Under the pieces are notes generated by a model that did not search any database, was not told the DNA's origin, and saw only the letters and a list, made by a program, of their open reading frames with translations. 59,665 nucleotides of DNA from Candidatus Frackibacter sp. WG13 (GTDB lineage Bacteria > Bacillota > Halanaerobiia > Halobacteroidales > Acetohalobiaceae). Location: assembly GCF_900114655.1 (NCBI RefSeq), contig NZ_FOTT01000019.1:1-59665 (forward strand), in the 5' to 3' direction. This document shows positions 10,443 through 23,866 of this stretch, piece by piece (within the stretch, counting starts at the first letter, position 1; each line of letters opens with the position of its first letter). Both the position numbers and the translations under genes were made by a program.

Positions 10443-12062
10443 ATGGATGAAAATAGAGCAATTAATTTTAAAGAAGAAACGGTTAGAGTGGAGTACGTAA
10501 TTGGCGAAGATATAATTAGAGAGTCGATCACCGATGATTTAACAGTACCTGAACAGAAGCCAGATATCGAAAGGGTACTAGAAGTTACAGCTGAAGTTAA
10601 TGCAACCGATGCAACGATAGAAGAAGGTGGTGTAGATGTAAGTGGGGAGATAGACATAGGTATACTCTATGTAGCTGATATAGCTGATCCTTATATTGAG
10701 CCTGCACAGCCTGTGCATTTCTTTGAAGGAATAATAAACTTTGATAACTTTGTTGATATTCCTGATGCTGAGCCAGGAATGCATGTAATAACAGATGTGC
10801 AAGTTGTTAGAGTAAACGGTGAAATGATTGATGAAAGAACGGTGCGAGTAACAGTCACTATTCGAAAGTTTGTTAAAGTAGTAGAGTTTAGACAGGTTAC
10901 GGTAATAACAGAAGTTACTGGCTTAGATGATGCTATTATAGAAGAAGAATTACTAAGATTAGAAGATGTGGTAGGAGAGAATACAATCCAAACGATTGTA
11001 GCAGGAACAATAGACGTACCCGAAGTAAAGCCACCAATCGAAAGAATTCTTAGAGCTCAAGCTGATTTAGTTGATGACAGTGTTGAGAGTGAGATTACAG
11101 ATGATGCAGTTATAGTGGATGGAGAGCTTGATGTTGGAGTAGTATATGTTGCAGAGACAGATGCAGGTGATCAACCGGTTCACTTTGTAGAAGGTGCTAT
11201 TGATTTCTCACAAGTAATAGATATACCAGGGGCTATAGACGATGATATGTCAGACTTTGTTGATGTTACTGTTAAGAGAGTGACGGCTACTAGAGTAGAT
11301 GAAGACACTGTTAAAGTAGAGGTAGTCATTGAGATCTTTGTTAAGGTTACTGAACCAATCCAGGTTACAGTTGTTACTGATATTCAGAGTGACAAGGTGA
11401 AGGTTGAACAAGAACTATTAAGAGTAGAAGAAGTAATTGGTGAGGATACTATCTCCGAAACAATTACTAATGAGTTAGAGCTATTACCAGGGGATCCAGA
11501 TATTGAGCAAGTAATTGAAGTGAATGCCAACATATTAGATCCGACGGCTAATGTAGAAGAAGGTGGAGTGCTTGTCGAAGGTCAGATTGAAGGAAATGCT
11601 CTTTATGTAGGAGATGTAGATGATCCTGGTTTTCAACAACCGGTCTTCTTTGTATCGGATGTTTTTGATTTCGAAAATTTCGTTCAAATTACAGGGGCAG
11701 AGCCAGATATGGGAGCCTTTACTAATGTAACAGTGAAAAGAGTGAGATATAATTTATTAGATTCTCGCGCTATTGAATTAATAGTTACTATCACTAAGTT
11801 TGTAAAAGTAGTTCAGTTTGTGCAGACAGATATTGTTACTGACATAGTTGTTGTTTCACCAGTTGTAGATAAAGACTGTCCAGATCGCCCATCATTTGTG
11901 GTCTATGTAGTACAGCCAGGCGATACCTTATTTAAGATTGCACAAAGATTTAATACAACAGTAGATGCTATTGTAGAACAGAACGATATTGAGAATCCAG
12001 ACGTAATTGAAGTAGGTCAGAAATTATGTATTCCAAAAGGAATTATAGGTGCAAAAGGCTAA
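10443..12062 (+). CDS. SipL-like protein: three SPOCS domains plus C-terminal LysM
   Basis: 539 aa. Three SPOCS domains have signatures PDAEPGM near residue 108, PGAIDDDM near 262 and TGAEPDM near 417, separated by EELLRxExVxGE(N/D)T linkers. The C-terminus is a LysM domain at about 488-534 (VVYVVQPGDTLFKIAQRFN..., ending GQKLCIPKG). SPOCS plus C-terminal LysM is the architecture of SipL, whose LysM domain binds the coat ATPase SpoIVA in C. difficile; length is also close to that protein. Acts in the mother cell at the forespore surface. Start set by AAAGGAGGAG. Exact sigma-K-type promoter upstream. A second protein of the same architecture follows at 12201, so which one is the SipL orthologue is open. 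Confidence 0.88.
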   Translation: MDENRAINFKEETVRVEYVIGEDIIRESITDDLTVPEQKPDIERVLEVTAEVNATDATIEEGGVDVSGEIDIGILYVADIADPYIEPAQPVHFFEGIINFDNFVDIPDAEPGMHVITDVQVVRVNGEMIDERTVRVTVTIRKFVKVVEFRQVTVITEVTGLDDAIIEEELLRLEDVVGENTIQTIVAGTIDVPEVKPPIERILRAQADLVDDSVESEITDDAVIVDGELDVGVVYVAETDAGDQPVHFVEGAIDFSQVIDIPGAIDDDMSDFVDVTVKRVTATRVDEDTVKVEVVIEIFVKVTEPIQVTVVTDIQSDKVKVEQELLRVEEVIGEDTISETITNELELLPGDPDIEQVIEVNANILDPTANVEEGGVLVEGQIEGNALYVGDVDDPGFQQPVFFVSDVFDFENFVQITGAEPDMGAFTNVTVKRVRYNLLDSRAIELIVTITKFVKVVQFVQTDIVTDIVVVSPVVDKDCPDRPSFVVYVVQPGDTLFKIAQRFNTTVDAIVEQNDIENPDVIEVGQKLCIPKGIIGAKG

Positions 12063-12084
12063 AAATTTAGATAACTTGAACCTA

Positions 12085-12118
12085 AAGGCTGTGGGGAGAC
12101 CTACAGTCTTATTCTATT
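12085..12118 (+). terminator. Probable terminator after 10443 gene
   Basis: AAGGCTGT (12085-12092) pairs with ACAGTCTT (12103-12110), with a GG/CC extension inside the loop. The T-run is interrupted (ATTCTATTT), so strength is uncertain. Confidence 0.5.
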
Positions 12119-12144
12119 TACACATAATTATTTCTCCAGTTTTC

Positions 12145-12171
12145 ACACTATCTTAGTTTCTACATAAAATA
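12145..12171 (+). promoter_or_regulatory. Sigma-K-type promoter, 12201 gene
   Basis: AC at 12145-12146 (CACA), 16-base spacer, CATAAAATA at 12163-12171. Exact consensus, 30 bases before the start codon. Confidence 0.75.
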
Positions 12172-12200
12172 TATTAAGGTTAACTAAAAGGAGGGAGAAT

Positions 12201-13709
12201 ATGGATAATATTACTGTCGCCAATTTAATCCTTCGTGAGCAGATAGAAGAAACGGTCGAAAGAAGAATTGTTTTAGCCCAGAATCGACCAGGAGTAGCTA
12301 GAGTATTAGAGACTAATGTTAGATTAGAGAATATAGAGACTGAAGTCGTAGATGGAGGAGTTAGAATTAATGGGATTTTACGAACGACAATCTTATATGT
12401 TCCAGAAGATAATACATCAGCAGTAGAGACGATTGAAAAGAGAATAAGCTTTAGTTTTGTAGTTGACGTTAATGTACCAGGGAGAACAGTGGAGATAGAT
12501 CCTGCTCTCTTTGTTCAAGAGGCAGAAGTTATAATTGTAGACCCACATAATCTTAGATTAACAGTCGTTATTGTAGGTAGGTTAAACTTTATTGAAGCAG
12601 AAAATATAAACTTTATTACTGATGACCAAGCTCAGATAGTTAGGGATGAATTTGAGTTTGATCAAGTAGTTGCTGAAAAGACAGTGACCAGGCAAGTTGA
12701 AAGAGTAGTAGAGTTAGCTAATAATCAAGCCCCAATTGAGCGAGTACTAAATATTCAAAGTACAACTAGGATCATCAATACTCATGTTCGTAGGAATCAA
12801 GTAGAGGTGCAAGCAGAGATTAGAAGTCAGATTTTATATCAATCCCCAGATGGTAGGACGCGAAGCTTGAATATCACTACTCCATTTACCGAGAGAATCA
12901 GAATTGAAGGCGCTAGAAGTGGGATGCAGGCTTTCGTTGATTTAGAGATTATAGACCAAGATTTTAGAATAATAGACCCTAGGACTTTGCGGATTAATTA
13001 TGAAACAGAGATTAATACAGCAGTCTTAACAAGAGACCAAATAGATTTCCCAATAGATATAGATGGTGACCTATTCCCTAGAAGAAGGACTGTCTTAGTT
13101 GAAAGAATTGTAGCCAGAAAGCAGACGCGAGTCTTATTACGAGATACAATAGATGTTCCACCTCCGGGTGCTAGTAGAGTAGTTAGGGTTACAGCTGATG
13201 TAGCTGACCAAGTGATAGAAGCTGATGTAGACGACGGAGGAGTATTTATTTCTGGTGAGGTAGATGTTAATGTATTATATGTAGCTAATCAACCTGATCA
13301 ACCGGTCTTCTTTGTTGGAGATACACTGTTCTTTGATGAATTTATCTCTGTTTCAATTCCTAGAGACGTATTTAGAGTTAGAGCTTATCCAGAAGTTAGA
13401 GTTGTAAGTGCAGAAGGAGAAGTAGTAGATGGGGATACAATTAGGATTAGAGTCTTATTAAGTATTGAAGTCTTGGTTACAGCAATAGTAGAAGTTCCAG
13501 TGGTCATAGGCGTAGGGGAGGATAGAGAAGAATTTGAGCCACCCCGACCAACGCCAGATGAAGGTGAAATTTATATAGTTAAACAAGGAGATACTCTCTT
13601 TATAATTGCGCAAAGGTTTGGAGTAACAATAGCTGAATTAGTGGCAGTTAATGATATTGTTAATCCTGACCAACTAGAAGTCGGCCAGGAGTTAATAATT
13701 CCTGATTAA
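12201..13709 (+). CDS. Second SipL-like protein: SPOCS domains plus LysM
   Basis: 502 aa. Three SPOCS-type domains, at about residues 15-150, 165-300 and 315-440, are more diverged and Arg-rich than in the 10443 protein (for example VERRIVLAQNRPGVARVLE). A Pro/Glu linker (EEFEPPRPTPDEGE) leads to a LysM domain at about 456-502 (YIVKQGDTLFIIAQRFG..., ending GQELIIPD). The LysM and last SPOCS domain match the 10443 paralogue best, so the pair probably arose by duplication. Ribosome site AAGGAGGG. Own sigma-K-type promoter. Expected to act in coat assembly; its partner is unknown. Confidence 0.85.
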   Translation: MDNITVANLILREQIEETVERRIVLAQNRPGVARVLETNVRLENIETEVVDGGVRINGILRTTILYVPEDNTSAVETIEKRISFSFVVDVNVPGRTVEIDPALFVQEAEVIIVDPHNLRLTVVIVGRLNFIEAENINFITDDQAQIVRDEFEFDQVVAEKTVTRQVERVVELANNQAPIERVLNIQSTTRIINTHVRRNQVEVQAEIRSQILYQSPDGRTRSLNITTPFTERIRIEGARSGMQAFVDLEIIDQDFRIIDPRTLRINYETEINTAVLTRDQIDFPIDIDGDLFPRRRTVLVERIVARKQTRVLLRDTIDVPPPGASRVVRVTADVADQVIEADVDDGGVFISGEVDVNVLYVANQPDQPVFFVGDTLFFDEFISVSIPRDVFRVRAYPEVRVVSAEGEVVDGDTIRIRVLLSIEVLVTAIVEVPVVIGVGEDREEFEPPRPTPDEGEIYIVKQGDTLFIIAQRFGVTIAELVAVNDIVNPDQLEVGQELIIPD

Positions 13710-13712
13710 TTA

Positions 13713-15377
13713 TTAAACCTCCATGATTAATGGTAGAATCATGGGGTTTCTTTTTAGTTCGTGGTATAAAAAATCATTAACAACATATTTGATTTTAGAC
13801 TTTAGCTTAGACCATTCAGTAACATTAGCTGCTTCAGTCTTTTCTAAAGCTTTCTTAACTCTCTTTTTAATTTTAGCTATTAGTTCTTGTGAAGTCTGGA
13901 TATGAATAAATCCCCTAGAAATGATGTCAGGACCGGCTACTACTTCGCCGGTCTTGCCATCAATAGTAATCATAATAATAATCATTCCATCATCAGCAAG
14001 AGCTTGACGGTCATTGAGGACTACATTACCTATATCACCAACCCCTAAGCCATCTACAAATACCTTTCCTGCTGGTACCTTGTCGGTTATCTTAGCTTCA
14101 TTAGAATTAATCTCAAGTTTAACACCATTTGGTGTAATAAAGATGTTCTCTTCAGATATTCCTATCTCTTTAGCTACTTCAGCATGATGGTATAAGTGTC
14201 TATATTCACCATGAACCGGAATAAAATAGTTAGGCTTAGTAAGAGCTAACATTAATTTTAATTCTTCTTTAGCTGCGTGTCCAGACACATGAACATCAAA
14301 TTCATTACCATAGATTACTTGAACTCCTTTTTCCAAGAGTTGATTAATGGTATTACTAACTGATAATTCGTTCCCCGGAATAGGAGTAGCAGATATAAAG
14401 ACAGTATCAGTATTATTAACTTGAATTTGATGGTGATCTCCTCTAGCAACTCTAGTTAAAGCTGCCATGGGTTCTCCTTGACTACCGGTCATCAAGATGA
14501 CCAATTCTTCCGGTTCTAACTTATTGATACTTCTAATATCTACTAACATATCAGAAGTTAAATCTACATATCCCAACTCTTGGGCAGTCTGTACAGAATT
14601 AATCATACTCCTACCAGTAACGGCTATCTTTCTATTAGTCATTTTAGCAGCTGTAATGGCCTGTTGGATGCGATGAATATGAGAAGAGAAGGTAGCAACA
14701 ATTACTCTACCTTCTGCTTCCGTAAATCTATCTTCTAAGGTCTTGCCTATTGTACTTTCAGAACCAGTATAACCATTTCTTTCGGCATTAGTACTATCTG
14801 ATAGGAGGGCTAATAGACCTTCTTCTCCTATTTCAGCCAATTTATAAAAATCAGTGGGCTTATTATCAATTGGAGTAAAGTCAATCTTAAAGTCACCAGT
14901 ATAAAGGATCTTACCGATATCGGTTTCAAGTGAGATTGCTACAGCATCAGGAATACTATGGTTAACATTGATAAATTGTGCTTTAAAGCTACCGAGTTCA
15001 ACTTTATCTCTTGGCTTAATTATATTTAGTTCAGTATTCTTAAGCAAATTTCTATCTTTAAGTCTATCTTTAACAAAAGAAATTGTTAGTTGAGTACCAT
15101 AAATAGGTATGTTTATATCTGAAATTAGATAAGGTATGCCACCGATATGGTCTTCATGACCATGGCTTAATAGTAATGCTTTTACTCTTTCTTTATTCTC
15201 TTTTAAATAGGTCATATCAGGAATCACTAGGTCAATTCCTAGCATTTCATCAGTAGGGAACATCACACCTGCGTCTAAAATTAGAATATCTTCTTTATAC
15301 TCAATGACAATTAAGTTATTCCCAACAACTCCTTTACCACCTAGTTGAATAATTCCAATTCTATCTTTTTTTGTCAT
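13713..15377 (-). CDS. rnj: Ribonuclease J
   Basis: 554 aa, the usual length for RNase J. Metallo-beta-lactamase motif SHGHEDHIGG at residues 71-80, then downstream metal ligands in NVNHSIPD and YTGDFK; beta-CASP region follows (LLSDSTNAERNGYTGSE, ATFSSHIHRIQQ, TGSQGEP, HVSGHA, PVHGEYRHL), and a C-terminal domain. RNase J is a 5'-to-3' exo- and endoribonuclease in RNA maturation and decay. Start ATG with an AAGGGAG site. Upstream is a cluster of DnaA boxes (15400-15543), so DnaA could influence its transcription. Its last codons form the terminator hairpin of the opposing gene. Confidence 0.96.
   Translation of the reverse strand: MTKKDRIGIIQLGGKGVVGNNLIVIEYKEDILILDAGVMFPTDEMLGIDLVIPDMTYLKENKERVKALLLSHGHEDHIGGIPYLISDINIPIYGTQLTISFVKDRLKDRNLLKNTELNIIKPRDKVELGSFKAQFINVNHSIPDAVAISLETDIGKILYTGDFKIDFTPIDNKPTDFYKLAEIGEEGLLALLSDSTNAERNGYTGSESTIGKTLEDRFTEAEGRVIVATFSSHIHRIQQAITAAKMTNRKIAVTGRSMINSVQTAQELGYVDLTSDMLVDIRSINKLEPEELVILMTGSQGEPMAALTRVARGDHHQIQVNNTDTVFISATPIPGNELSVSNTINQLLEKGVQVIYGNEFDVHVSGHAAKEELKLMLALTKPNYFIPVHGEYRHLYHHAEVAKEIGISEENIFITPNGVKLEINSNEAKITDKVPAGKVFVDGLGVGDIGNVVLNDRQALADDGMIIIMITIDGKTGEVVAGPDIISRGFIHIQTSQELIAKIKKRVKKALEKTEAANVTEWSKLKSKIKYVVNDFLYHELKRNPMILPLIMEV
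13715..13755 (+). terminator. Terminator of 12201 gene, embedded in the rnj 3' end
   Basis: AAACCTCCATGATT (13715-13728) pairs with AATCATGGGGTTT (13737-13749) with one bulge, followed by CTTTTT. The same bases encode the last residues of the converging RNase J gene. Confidence 0.75.
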
Positions 15378-15399: not shown

Positions 15400-15543
15400 T
15401 TATCCACACTATCCACAAGTTATCCACATTAATTTATCAAAAACTTATCCACATCAATATCCCTATAAAAGAAGTGTTTTAGTAACTTATCCACAGTATC
15501 CACAGAACAATCCACAAATCTGTTAACAACTTTCTGTGAATAA
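15400..15543. promoter_or_regulatory. DnaA-box cluster
   Basis: Four exact TTATCCACA boxes at 15400-15408, 15420-15428, 15445-15453 and 15487-15495. One-mismatch boxes directly abut two of them: CTATCCACA at 15409-15417 and GTATCCACA at 15496-15504. CAATCCACA (two mismatches) lies at 15508-15516, and a reverse one-mismatch box TGTGAATAA at 15535-15543. AT-rich spacers and a GTTAAC palindrome lie between. Such density is typical of oriC, a DnaA-titration site or a DnaA-controlled promoter. No dnaA gene is in the window, although the region is origin-proximal by synteny. Confidence 0.85.
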
Positions 15544-15553
15544 TTTAACATTC

Positions 15554-16126
15554 TTATTTGGGTATTTTTAGCTTTTGTCCCGGATAAATTCGTTCAGGGT
15601 CTGAAATTTGATTTAATTCGACTAATTTTTGAACCGAAGTATGATAGTTTTTGGCGATTTTATATAATGAATCGCCATGTTTCACTGTATAAAGAATATA
15701 TTTAGAATTAGAGTCAACATTTGAGTTAGGTTCTGAGTTATTATTATTCTGTGCATTATTAGGATTAAGCTGTTGATTACTGTTGATAATTTTAATTGGA
15801 GTCCCAACGTTAACTTTTTTATAAACCGCTTCTACATCTTTATTGTGCATCCGAACACAGCCGTGAGAAACTGCTTGACCAATTAACCAAGGCTTATTAG
15901 TACCATGAATTCCGTGTTTTCTCCAAGTGAATTGAATCCATCTTGTACCTAATCCTCCACCAGGGTTCATACGTTTAAGTAAGACTTCAAAATCACCAGT
16001 AGGAGTAGGGGTAGAGCTTTTGCCAACAGCTACTGGATAATGACCAATTACTTTTCCGTCTTCATAAAGTTCTAAGTAATGCTGCTTAGTATTAATCAAA
16101 ATCTTGTTATTAATATTATTCACCAC
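15554..16126 (-). CDS. L,D-transpeptidase (YkuD) with C-terminal LysM
   Basis: 190 aa. YkuD domain at about 8-113: [25 protein letters not shown], and the catalytic SHGCVRM motif (Cys nucleophile, conserved His). An Asn/Ser-rich linker leads to a LysM domain at about 145-190 ([17 protein letters not shown]...GQKLKIPK). There is no signal peptide, unlike vegetative L,D-transpeptidases, which fits mother-cell expression and assembly on the spore like B. subtilis YkuD. An exact sigma-K-type promoter lies 45 bases upstream (16171-16197). The start is one of two adjacent GTG codons after an AAGGG site; which one is used is unclear. Likely crosslinks spore peptidoglycan (inference). Confidence 0.9.
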
Positions 16127-16251: not shown

Positions 16252-17070
16252 ATGGGTGAAAAAGTACAAGGAAGATTACTAATTATAGGTGGAGCAGAAG
16301 ATAAAGATGGGGAATGTAAAATTTTAAAAAAGGTGGTTGAATTATTAGAAAAAACAGCTAAAAGCTTAGTCATTCTAACCACAGCTACCCGTTTGCCTAA
16401 AGAAGTAGGCACTGAATATAAAAGGCTCTTTACTGAATTAGGCTTAGATAAGGTAGAAGTAATTAATATTGAATCAAGAAAGAAAGCTAATGATAAAAAG
16501 ATAGAAAGAAAGGTCCAAGATGCTGCAGGGGTCTTCTTTACTGGTGGCGATCAATTGCGTATTACTAGTCTTTTAGGTGGTTCAAAAGTTGCAGGAGCTT
16601 TACACCAGATCTATCAACAAGGAAGCTTAATTGTTGGTACGAGTGCTGGTGCTGCGGCTATGAGTGACACAATGATTGTACAGGGAGATAATACAGAAAC
16701 GCCGAAAAAATGCACTTTAAAGATGGCCCCAGGCATGGGATTATTAGAAGAAGTAATTATAGATCAGCATTTTGCTCAAAGAGGTAGAATTGGGAGATTA
16801 TTATTAGCGATTGCGCAGAATCCTTATGTATTAGGAGTTGGCATTGACGAAGATACTGCAATTTTAGTTGAATCCACAGGTAGATTTAAGGTGTTAGGTA
16901 GTCAAACAGTGACTATTGTAGATGCTAGTGAGATATCACATACCAATGTATCAGAACTGCATTCTAATCAACCGTTAGGGGTATCTGATATCCGGTTACA
17001 TGTAATTCCTGCTGGCTATCAATATGATCTAGAATCTAAGCAAGTAATTATTCCTGAGGATATTCAATAA
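16252..17070 (+). CDS. cphB: Cyanophycinase
   Basis: 272 aa. Peptidase S51 family: N-terminal LLIIGGAEDK, FFTGGDQLRI near residue 95, catalytic Ser131 in VGTSAGAAAMS, and DQHFAQRGRIGRLL near 164. Cyanophycinase cleaves the arginine-aspartate storage polymer cyanophycin into beta-Asp-Arg dipeptides. It lacks a signal peptide, so it is the intracellular type. It is followed by cyanophycin synthetase with a gap of about 120 bases and no terminator, so the two are probably co-transcribed. Ribosome site TTAGGAGGG. The adjacency makes the assignment secure. Confidence 0.95.
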   Translation: MGEKVQGRLLIIGGAEDKDGECKILKKVVELLEKTAKSLVILTTATRLPKEVGTEYKRLFTELGLDKVEVINIESRKKANDKKIERKVQDAAGVFFTGGDQLRITSLLGGSKVAGALHQIYQQGSLIVGTSAGAAAMSDTMIVQGDNTETPKKCTLKMAPGMGLLEEVIIDQHFAQRGRIGRLLLAIAQNPYVLGVGIDEDTAILVESTGRFKVLGSQTVTIVDASEISHTNVSELHSNQPLGVSDIRLHVIPAGYQYDLESKQVIIPEDIQ

Positions 17071-17189
17071 TTTTTAAGCAAAGTATAGTAATTATATTCA
17101 ATGGGTAGAATAGTTAAAGTCGACTGAAAAAATAATTAAATTATGGTATTTAAAATGATTTAGTCAAAGAGATGAAGGTGGTTATGGGA

Positions 17190-19829
17190 ATGAAGCTTTT
17201 AGAAATTTCTACTTTACCAGGTGCTAATATTTATACCTACCAACCAGTAATTAAAATGAAAATTGATTTAGAAGAATTTAAGGCTAAAGAAAGTAAAGAT
17301 ATAGAAGGCTTTAATTCTAGATTAATCAAATTAATTCCGACCTTACGAGAGCATTATTGTGCTTTAGGTAGACCAGGAGGCTTCATAACTAGACTTAAAG
17401 AAGGTACCTATTTTGGTCACATAATAGAGCATACTGCAATTGAATTATTAAATCTCTTAGGACATAAAGTCAACTATGGTTGTACTCGGAGAACTGAAGA
17501 ACCAGGTATTTATAATATAGTGTACGAGTATGAAAGAGAAACCCCGGCAATTTTAGCAGGAAAAGAGGCTTATAGATTAGTCTTATCTATCATTAATGGT
17601 CAGGTGGTGAATATGAAAGAGATTATGGGAAGATTAAAGGAAGAAGACAGAGGTTCTGCATTAGGTCCTAGTACTAAGGCAATAGTTGAAGCAGCTCATA
17701 AAAGAAATATACCAACAATTAGATTGGGTGAACGCAATAGCTTAATTCAATTAGGTTATGGTAAGTATCAAAAGAAAATCCAGGCCACTATTAGCCAGCA
17801 GACTTCTTGTATAGGAGTTGATACAGCCTGTGACAAATGGCTAGCTAAAAATTTATTGTATGAAATGGGACTTCCAGTAGCTAATGGAGAGATAGTTACT
17901 ACTAAACAAGAGGCTATAGAAGTAGCTGAAAGGTTTCAAGGTAAGGTGGTGACAAAACCATATAATTCTAATCAGGGTCAAGGTATTAGTCTTAATCTTA
18001 TTACTTCCAATGAGGTAGAGGAGGGTTTTAAATTAGCTCAAAAGTATAGTGCAGAAGTAATAGTAGAAGAGATGATTCCTGGTAATGATTATCGAATATT
18101 AGTAGTTAATGGACAAGCTGTGGCAGTAGCACAAAGAATTCCAGCTCATATTATCGGTGATGGTAAGACAGATATTTTGAATTTAATTAAAGAGGTTAAT
18201 AATGATCCACTGCGAGGAGAGGGACATAGTTTACCTCTAACTAAGATAAAGGTAGACCAAACAGTCCTTCGCCTTTTAGCTCATCAAAATTATCATTTAG
18301 ATTCAATTCCTAAGGAGGGAGAGCAGGTCTTTTTACGTGAGACAGGCAACCTCAGTACAGGTGGTACAGCTATTGATAAGACAGATGATATCCATCCTCT
18401 TAATAAAGAATTAGCACTTCGAGCAGCTGAAGTAGTCGGTTTAGATATTGCAGGGGTAGATTTAGTTACCTCAGATATTAGTAAACCAGTTTCAGATAAT
18501 CAAGGTGCTATTATTGAAGTCAATGCAGCGCCAGGGATTAGGATGCACCATTATCCTACTGTTGGTAAAAAACGAGATGTTGCTGGAGCTATTGTTGAGA
18601 TGTTATTTCCATCAACAGAACCAAGCCGGATTCCTATTATTTCGATTACAGGAACTAATGGAAAGACAACAGTAACTAGGCTAGTTAGCCTAATTTTGCA
18701 GCAAAAAGGCTATCAAGTGGGAATGACGACTACTGATGGTATTTATATTAATCAGCAATGTGTCTTATCAGGAGATACCACGGGACCACTAAGTGCTCAG
18801 ACTGTATTAAGAGATCCTAATGTAGAAGTAGCTGTTTTAGAAACAGCTAGAGGCGGAATTTTAAGGGATGGCTTAGGATATGATGAGAGTGATATTGGAG
18901 TAATAACTAATATTTCTCCTGACCATTTAGGTCAGGATGGGATAGAAAGTTTAGAAGATTTAGCTGACATCAAATCTTTAGTGATTGAAAGAATTAATGA
19001 TGAAGGCAGTGCTATTTTGAATGCAGATGATAAAGAAGTAGTTAAATTGGCTAATAAGAGTAATGCGCAGAATATTATTTATGTCTCACAACAGAATAAT
19101 AATTTCATTGTCAGGAAGCATATGGCCCAAGGTGGAACTGCAGTTTATATTAAAGAGGATAAGGTAATGATTAATCATCAGCAAGAAGAATTAGAATTGA
19201 TTGATGTAAATAAGATTCCAGCAACGTATAAGGGAATAGCTAAGCATATGATTGAAAATATATTATTAGCAGCAGCTATCTCTTTTGACTTTGGAGTTGA
19301 AACGGAAGCTATTAGAAAGACTTTAAAAGATTTTGGTAAAGATTATAAGCAGAATTTAGGACGACTGAACCTTATAGAAATAGCAGGGAGAAAGGTTATA
19401 TTAGATTATGGACATAACTTGGCTGGTTACGAAGCAACTTTGGAAGTAGCAAAAGAGTTAAAAACCAAAGGAATAGTCGGTGTAATCGGTGTTCCAGGAG
19501 ATAGAAAAGATGAATCTATTATAAAACTAGGACACTTAGCTGGAAAAGAGATTGAGAAGATATTTATTAAAGAAGATGAGGATTTGCGAGGAAGAAAAGA
19601 AGGAGAAGCAGCCCAGTTACTAGCTACGGGAATAAAGAGGTTTAGTTATAAAAAAGAATTTAAATTTGTCTTATCGGAGTTAGAAGCAGTAAAGGAAGCA
19701 TTAAAAGTAACAGAACCAGGAGATATACTGGTAATATTCTATGAGAAGAATCCAGAAAAGATACTAAATTTAATAAAGGATGAACTAAAGCCTAAAGAAG
19801 AATTAAACGAAGTTGTACTTGTTGAATAA
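17190..19829 (+). CDS. cphA: Cyanophycin synthetase
   Basis: 879 aa. The start ATG at 17190 (MKLLEISTLPGANIY) matches the family N-terminus and has AAGGTGG at 8-base spacing; in-frame ATGs at 17172 and 17184 are poorly placed. Three parts are visible: an N-terminal domain (FGRT-like NYGCTRRTEEPGIYN), an ATP-grasp domain (VTKPYNSNQGQGI, IEVNAAPGIRMHHYP) that adds Asp to the backbone, and a Mur-ligase-like domain with ATP-binding SITGTNGKTTVTRL near residue 488 that adds Arg. Makes cyanophycin as a nitrogen, carbon and energy store; endospore-forming Clostridia also make it. Forms an operon with cphB. Confidence 0.96.
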   Translation: MKLLEISTLPGANIYTYQPVIKMKIDLEEFKAKESKDIEGFNSRLIKLIPTLREHYCALGRPGGFITRLKEGTYFGHIIEHTAIELLNLLGHKVNYGCTRRTEEPGIYNIVYEYERETPAILAGKEAYRLVLSIINGQVVNMKEIMGRLKEEDRGSALGPSTKAIVEAAHKRNIPTIRLGERNSLIQLGYGKYQKKIQATISQQTSCIGVDTACDKWLAKNLLYEMGLPVANGEIVTTKQEAIEVAERFQGKVVTKPYNSNQGQGISLNLITSNEVEEGFKLAQKYSAEVIVEEMIPGNDYRILVVNGQAVAVAQRIPAHIIGDGKTDILNLIKEVNNDPLRGEGHSLPLTKIKVDQTVLRLLAHQNYHLDSIPKEGEQVFLRETGNLSTGGTAIDKTDDIHPLNKELALRAAEVVGLDIAGVDLVTSDISKPVSDNQGAIIEVNAAPGIRMHHYPTVGKKRDVAGAIVEMLFPSTEPSRIPIISITGTNGKTTVTRLVSLILQQKGYQVGMTTTDGIYINQQCVLSGDTTGPLSAQTVLRDPNVEVAVLETARGGILRDGLGYDESDIGVITNISPDHLGQDGIESLEDLADIKSLVIERINDEGSAILNADDKEVVKLANKSNAQNIIYVSQQNNNFIVRKHMAQGGTAVYIKEDKVMINHQQEELELIDVNKIPATYKGIAKHMIENILLAAAISFDFGVETEAIRKTLKDFGKDYKQNLGRLNLIEIAGRKVILDYGHNLAGYEATLEVAKELKTKGIVGVIGVPGDRKDESIIKLGHLAGKEIEKIFIKEDEDLRGRKEGEAAQLLATGIKRFSYKKEFKFVLSELEAVKEALKVTEPGDILVIFYEKNPEKILNLIKDELKPKEELNEVVLVE

Positions 19830-22783: not shown

Positions 22784-23866
22784 TTATAAGATTTCAGCAA
22801 CTATAGATTTACGTCGTTCATCAATAGCTTCAAAGTCCATAGCTTCTATGTAATATTCTTCTAAATCATCATGTAGGCTTTTAGCATTAGCAATTTTAGT
22901 GATTGCTTTAGAAATTAATTTATTATATCTCTCTTTAGCATTTAAAATTTCATCATTAAATTGGTCAACCTTTTCTTGGTCAACGCAGTCTAGCATATTA
23001 ATGACTTGGTCACCTTCTCTAGTTGGTTCTATCTGATGAGGAGCGGTGCCATCAATTAAAGCGACATCAAGTTTAGGAATTATGATTGTATCTACACTTT
23101 CTGGGTCAAAAGAACAGTGAAAGAACTGTACATCATACCCTCTCTCTAAAGCAGCTTCAGCTACCTTTTGGGTTAAGGTTGCCTTGCCAGTACCCGGTCT
23201 ACCTTTAATAATATAGCGATTCCTTATATTAGAGGTAATACTACTAAGATAATCTACAGGACCCTGTGGAGTTAAGGCACTAGCAAATAGACGGCGAGTT
23301 TGGCCAGCCTCTTCACTGATAGGTTGGGTATTAAAGAGTTTATCAATTACTTCGGTTGTCTTTTGATTAGCTTTTTGAAAGTCCATAGCTTTTATGTAGT
23401 AATCCTCCCATTCATCGTGAACTAACTTAGCCGTTGCTAAGTAGTCATAGGCTCTTTGAAATAGACCCCATATTTGGTCGTTTAAATCTTTAATCTCTTT
23501 TGTATACTCCTTTAAAAGCTCACGGTCCCAATATCGGCCTAAATTGATGATTTCATCAACTGCACCTGGATATTCAGGGTCTACCATATGAGGTGCAGTA
23601 CCATCTAAGAATGCTACTTTAAGTTCTTTAATAACTAGACCGTCTAATGAGTTATTATCAGATGAACACCAGTGATATTCGATATTGAAGCCTTTCTCTA
23701 TCATAGTTTCACCGATCTTTTTCATAAAAGTAGATTTACCAGTACCAGGACCTCCTTTAATAATGAAGATTCGATCAACATTATATGGTAAATATTCATA
23801 AAAAGAATAGAAGCCTTGAGCAGTATTGCCACCAGGAAATAGGTTAATAACTTGACCTTCTTTCAT
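22784..23866 (-). CDS. Duplicated P-loop ATPase, probable sporulation gene
   Basis: 360 aa built from two homologous halves. Half 1 has Walker A GGPGTGKST (38-46), VAFLDGTAPHMVDP near 84, and AKLVHDEWEDYYIKAMDF near 146. Half 2 has GRPGTGKAT (222-230), VALIDGTAPHQIEP and AKSLHDDLEEYYIEAMDF. The second P-loop has Ala-Thr after the Lys where the first has Ser-Thr. It matches an uncharacterised Firmicute ATPase family whose substrate is unknown. An exact sigma-K-type promoter (23908-23934) lies 42 bases upstream, placing it with the coat genes although it sits inside a housekeeping block. No membrane segment. Ribosome site AAGGGGGA. Confidence 0.8.
   Translation of the reverse strand: MKEGQVINLFPGGNTAQGFYSFYEYLPYNVDRIFIIKGGPGTGKSTFMKKIGETMIEKGFNIEYHWCSSDNNSLDGLVIKELKVAFLDGTAPHMVDPEYPGAVDEIINLGRYWDRELLKEYTKEIKDLNDQIWGLFQRAYDYLATAKLVHDEWEDYYIKAMDFQKANQKTTEVIDKLFNTQPISEEAGQTRRLFASALTPQGPVDYLSSITSNIRNRYIIKGRPGTGKATLTQKVAEAALERGYDVQFFHCSFDPESVDTIIIPKLDVALIDGTAPHQIEPTREGDQVINMLDCVDQEKVDQFNDEILNAKERYNKLISKAITKIANAKSLHDDLEEYYIEAMDFEAIDERRKSIVAEIL

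Follow-up and report, generated by a model that had tools for sequence, protein, structure and literature searches.

The 176 bases that separate the stop of an L,D-transpeptidase gene from the start of rnj, the gene for RNase J, hold an ordered array of DnaA boxes. We read this array as an extra-origin DnaA-box cluster of the Bacillus subtilis kind, of fixed geometry, that would serve rnj as its leader and as a control region responsive to DnaA; taken as a whole, together with the mechanism proposed below, this reading has a probability of roughly 55%. The array lies within the stretch of 59,665 nucleotides that was analyzed (the window), contig C23 in a draft assembly of 2.77 Mb (G000 in what follows). 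Eight box positions, lettered A to H from the transpeptidase end toward rnj, were recognized in the gap: TTATCCACA occurs four times without a mismatch, two boxes that abut a neighbor have one mismatch, one box is weaker, and one is an inverted TTATTCACA. Every box is on the plus strand except the inverted one. The gene names ispE, purR and rnj are used here as readings of Pfam matches. The features of the region are:

13713..15377, minus strand: rnj, RNase J (PF22505, PF17770), downstream of the array
15400..15408, plus strand: box H, TTATCCACA, perfect, 23-31 nt before the rnj ATG
15409..15417, plus strand: box G, CTATCCACA, one mismatch, abutting H
15420..15428, plus strand: box F, TTATCCACA, perfect
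15445..15453, plus strand: box E, TTATCCACA, perfect
15454..15459, minus strand: possible -10-like hexamer TATTGA, weak, abutting box E, read by eye from the alignment
15487..15495, plus strand: box D, TTATCCACA, perfect
15496..15504, plus strand: box C, GTATCCACA, one mismatch, abutting D (0 bp)
15508..15516, plus strand: weaker box B, CAATCCACA, two mismatches, 3 bp from C
15522..15530, minus strand: TTGTTAACA element, between B and A
15535..15543, minus strand: outer box A, inverted TTATTCACA
15554..16126, minus strand: L,D-transpeptidase gene (YkuD, LysM), preceding the array

An earlier note on this DNA had described a dense cluster of four perfect and two abutting near-perfect DnaA boxes, one box of the cluster being inverted, and this description was borne out when the 176-bp gap was compared with 2000 dinucleotide shuffles of its own sequence. 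Perfect TTATNCACA sites averaged 0.017 per shuffled gap and reached at most 1, versus 5 observed; for one-mismatch sites, the mean was 0.39 and the maximum 4, versus 7 observed. The array is the densest 150-bp stretch for boxes within the window, and it contains 4 of the 37 perfect TTATCCACA copies present in the whole genome, where the reversed-pattern control gives 27. Counted across the entire window, one-mismatch boxes number 76, no more than the 82.5 expected, so the signal is one of clustering. Several boxes are hence gathered in a single non-coding stretch beyond chance, as is characteristic of extra-origin clusters. DnaA very probably binds them.

The same note had suggested that the array could be a displaced or second part of oriC. 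The single DnaA match of the draft genome lies on a different contig (C29). This DnaA is an ordinary one, and its oriC, which uses the box found in the array, is bipartite, with boxes on both sides of dnaA. GC skew across dnaA passes from about -0.3 to +0.3, and a run of TAG/TAA triplets (DnaA-trios) stands beside the boxes between dnaA and dnaN. On either side of the array, skew stays positive, dipping locally over two reversed genes without a switch of sign; in the complete relative G004, it goes from negative to positive across the dnaA end of the contig. DnaA-trios occur near dnaA in all five genomes of the family, whereas a search that covered the five rnj arrays and a second array of G000 described below found none in any of the rnj arrays. 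A dense set of DnaA boxes close to the chromosomal origin is what a second origin would offer, but the array does not adjoin dnaA, shows no change of skew sign and lacks trios. With skew, dnaA location and trios all against it, we rejected this proposal, which we consider extremely unlikely. The GC-skew and dnaA-location checks called for in the note place switch and boxes at dnaA, on C29 and away from the array. On the other hand, its placing of the array near the origin by synteny held: in G004 (2469596 bases, dnaA near 0.7 kb), the rnj array is ~84 kb from dnaA. The array is therein proximal to oriC while lying outside it, and for the window's own genome this proximity is given by synteny. 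As a separate observation, in the dnaA-dnaN gap of G000 (L005:12307-12331), three boxes follow one another head to tail at intervals of 8 bp beside the trio run, a packing even tighter than that of the rnj array.

The array was found upstream of the orthologous rnj in all five genomes of the family (G000 to G004), which represent four genera. In the alignment, the inverted box A, box B, the abutting pair C-D and boxes E, F and H line up in every one of them. Box A is an inverted perfect TTATNCACA throughout; box B reads TTGTGGAT invariantly; box D is always perfect; and boxes E and F are kept, the latter in the form TTGTCCACA in G002. The position of box H is also maintained, with one mismatch in G003 and G004. 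Position G amounts to a box in just two genomes, G000 and G002. The TTGTTAACA element is identical in all genomes except G001. Spacing is nearly constant: 27 bp between A and B in four genomes and 26 in G001; a B-C gap of 3 bp in four and 2 bp in G001; 9 bp from start to start of C and D, with their 0-bp abutment, in all five; and 42 bp between D and E in four and 41 in G001. The E-F spacing is variable (21 to 25). In the five-genome alignment, 58 of 72 box columns are invariant, versus 17 of 104 non-box columns, the boxes being defined on one aligned row and the genomes being related rather than independent, so that the p-value of this comparison is not to be taken at face value. When the composite B-C-D pattern was searched in the genomes of the class, it was present in 5 out of 59, exactly the five family members, and its six matches are all upstream of rnj. 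Because none of the five related genomes has lost this layout, the array is probably a real control site linking replication state to RNase J. An origin as plasmid iterons is not supported, the array being conserved in place across genera.

Conservation also points to the gene concerned. In G001, ispE instead of the transpeptidase gene adjoins rnj, and the array is still there; the transpeptidase gene was accordingly rejected as a necessary partner. An rnj match was obtained in 60 of the 61 genomes searched, and 30 rnj loci were compared, five from the family and 25 others. Leaving out the incomplete locus L033, none of the 24 loci from outside the family, for some of which the best match is a paralogue, has a cluster, and they show at most a single box or two weak ones. 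In the sister family, loci in which a LysM/transpeptidase-like gene directly precedes rnj have no cluster upstream (L011, L012, L014, G006, G009), and no box was detected within 400 bp upstream of rnj in G005, G010, G006 and G009; the window's genome also has a second rnj paralogue, which likewise lacks boxes within this distance. We therefore rejected the array as a generic feature of rnj, in view of these 24 loci, the four sister-family loci and the paralogue. As it is kept in the genome where the transpeptidase gene is missing from this place, and is absent in the sister family and at the paralogue, the array goes with this rnj in this family. Its staying with rnj in five out of five genomes, even without an adjoining transpeptidase gene, favors control of rnj, and regulation of this gene by DnaA acting from the array appears somewhat better than an even prospect.

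Two tandem SipL/SPOCS-LysM genes adjoin rnj in the window (10443-13709); at the same place, there are two in G002 and one each in G003 and G004. Cyanophycinase-like (peptidase S51) and cyanophycin-synthetase-like genes (16252-19829) are present in G000 and G002 and absent at the same place in G001, G003 and G004. A 360-aa protein with two P-loop regions, which has no clear Pfam family (22784-23866), stays beside a purR-like gene in G003 and G004.

A second array of DnaA boxes was identified upstream of a CAP-domain gene, again in all five genomes of the family. Its locations are:

G000:C41:2465-2549 (L006): CAP array of the window's genome
G002, L127:4911-4995: CAP array
G001, L128:5580-5633: CAP array
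G003 and G004, upstream of CAP (L137, L138): CAP array

As at rnj, the outer box is inverted, and most of the other boxes have the orientation relative to their gene that is seen at rnj. The 42-bp step recurs in three of the five genomes; in G004 it is 32 bp, and in G001 a step of about 43 bp can be read by eye with a two-mismatch partner. A conserved TGnTATAAT lies below the array in all five. The distance between the rnj and CAP arrays is 17 kb in G002, where both are on one contig, ~11 kb in G003 and ~14 kb in G004, and from synteny with these relatives we infer that C41 sits beside the start of the window.

Besides a part of oriC, the note had put forward a DnaA reservoir and DnaA control of rnj. 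As a pure reservoir, the two arrays would bind DnaA near oriC and thereby delay or space initiation, with any effect on rnj incidental. Their distances from dnaA in G004 (~84 kb for rnj and ~70 kb for CAP) agree with such a role, as does the early initiation seen in B. subtilis once six extra-origin clusters are deleted, according to parts of PMC5295017 and PMC13220808. Nevertheless, a reservoir requires neither a fixed spacing nor a fixed gene, and both are kept in five of five genomes; the array also stays where the neighboring transpeptidase gene is absent. Against a strong role in timing, the review PMC5295017 states that no cluster has been identified in B. subtilis that contributes significantly to the regulation of initiation. 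We consider a pure reservoir unlikely, at about one chance in four if put in words, while noting that holding DnaA in reserve and controlling rnj are not mutually exclusive; titration of DnaA would then be a side effect or a second role of the array. That removal of the array would shift the timing of initiation is a tentative expectation, somewhat short of even odds. The earlier note had mentioned the timing of sporulation as well, and nothing in the analysis ties the array to it.

The near-constant geometry, with steps common to the two loci, could alternatively speak for a catalytic DnaA site comparable to datA or DARS of E. coli, at which the geometry would build a DnaA oligomer that changes the bound nucleotide. 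Yet B. subtilis has neither datA nor DARS loci, according to the part of PMC13220808 consulted, and is not known to have any site of this sort; YabA, a regulator of the Bacillus type, was found in 13 of 13 genomes searched. We judge a catalytic site quite improbable here.

It could also be argued that the repeats act in the leader RNA of rnj, or bind another protein, and that their match to DnaA boxes is coincidental: on the strand of rnj, all of them but one resemble TGTGGATAA, and transcription may include several of them. The match to the box of the genome's own oriC is, however, perfect; the outer box is inverted in five out of five genomes; and a similar array precedes the CAP gene. Rfam gave no match at the array, which led us to reject a riboswitch or known leader RNA. 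A coincidental resemblance is, in our estimate, a very slim chance.

Control of rnj by DnaA would be exerted in a region that the boxes fill and in which the promoter scan supports no promoter: scanning the rnj strand of the 176-bp gap returned no site, the -10-like hexamer included. At the place of this hexamer, the relatives have TATAAT, TATATA, TGTATT and TATAAA, as read by eye from the alignment. Since no terminator was found between the transpeptidase gene and rnj, transcription of rnj could proceed by read-through from the former. We propose that DnaA would nucleate on the tight B-C-D triplet and then spread to boxes E to H, across the presumed start of rnj. With C-D sparsely occupied beside a weak promoter, RNA polymerase could be helped, whereas it would be blocked once all boxes are filled; this promoter step is weak, because the scan found no site on the rnj strand of the gap. 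The output of rnj would then track DnaA activity, being lowest when DnaA is plentiful and released upon its depletion or its being drawn to oriC, although the direction of the regulation is a guess. As both arrays are near oriC and would be duplicated early, they might bind several DnaA molecules soon after initiation. A more ambitious proposal would make the rnj and CAP arrays a family-specific DnaA module near oriC through which RNase J, which clears nascent RNA and stalled RNA polymerase, would respond directly to the activity of DnaA, their 42-bp and 0-bp steps building a defined DnaA complex without known counterpart in Firmicutes, possibly one like those of datA and DARS; as a whole, we hold it to be unlikely.

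If DnaA does set the output of rnj, replication initiation would be wired to RNA turnover. Such wiring would make sense because, as reported in the part of PMC12448304 consulted, RNase J1 of B. subtilis can remove RNA polymerase that has stalled, as seen in vitro, and it is counted among the responses to conflicts between replication and transcription. Among open-licence papers, we found none joining DnaA boxes and RNase J, and none pairing the Halobacteroidaceae with the replication origin. The register kept across four genera also provides a natural experiment on which spacings of DnaA boxes are important away from oriC.

Extra-origin DnaA-box clusters are in themselves of an already known kind. 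Those of B. subtilis are located upstream of ywcI/vpr, trmE, ywlC, yqeG/sda and yydA and downstream of gcp; DnaA activates sda, while ywlC, trmE-noc and others appear to be repressed by it (PMC4447404, in part). Like the array, these clusters group, as far as described there, several DnaA boxes within a single intergenic region that is not part of oriC, in most cases where a gene begins. They differ from it in their genes, rnj not being among the binding regions given in the part of PMC4447404 consulted, whose main text has neither rnj nor ykqC, and the array in turn keeps its geometry across genera and includes boxes abutting at 0 bp. Clusters in other places were also encountered in our survey of same-strand box pairs with at most 30 bases between them. 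One in a different family (L044:1501-1540, G014) is directly downstream of the TsaD (gcp) gene, a place that, being shared with B. subtilis, may be old or convergent. In family f3 (L055, L056, L058, L067, L068 and others), a box pair recurs away from dnaA; three of these loci were scanned, and the pair is there close to DUF445, cation-efflux, CorA or GGDEF/HD genes. It would be another lineage-specific extra-origin cluster. Same-strand box pairs of the sister family occur only at dnaA, places being compared by eye.

In E. coli, DnaA prefers pairs of boxes 2-3 bp apart, and the genes that it binds include some of RNA metabolism (PMC11317965, in part). The double boxes described there are, like those of the array, closely spaced and in one orientation; B-C (3 bp) and F-G (2 bp) fit the preferred spacing, whereas C-D and G-H have no gap. 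At nrdAB, activation or repression depends on DnaA occupancy, as stated in the part of PMC8203912 consulted. The loci datA, DARS1 and DARS2 resemble the array in being non-coding DnaA-box loci outside oriC at a conserved place; they differ in using IHF or Fis and in acting on the nucleotide of DnaA, according to parts of PMC5295017 and PMC13220808. Compared with these systems, what is new in the array is rnj as the gene, the second site at CAP and the register kept across four genera.
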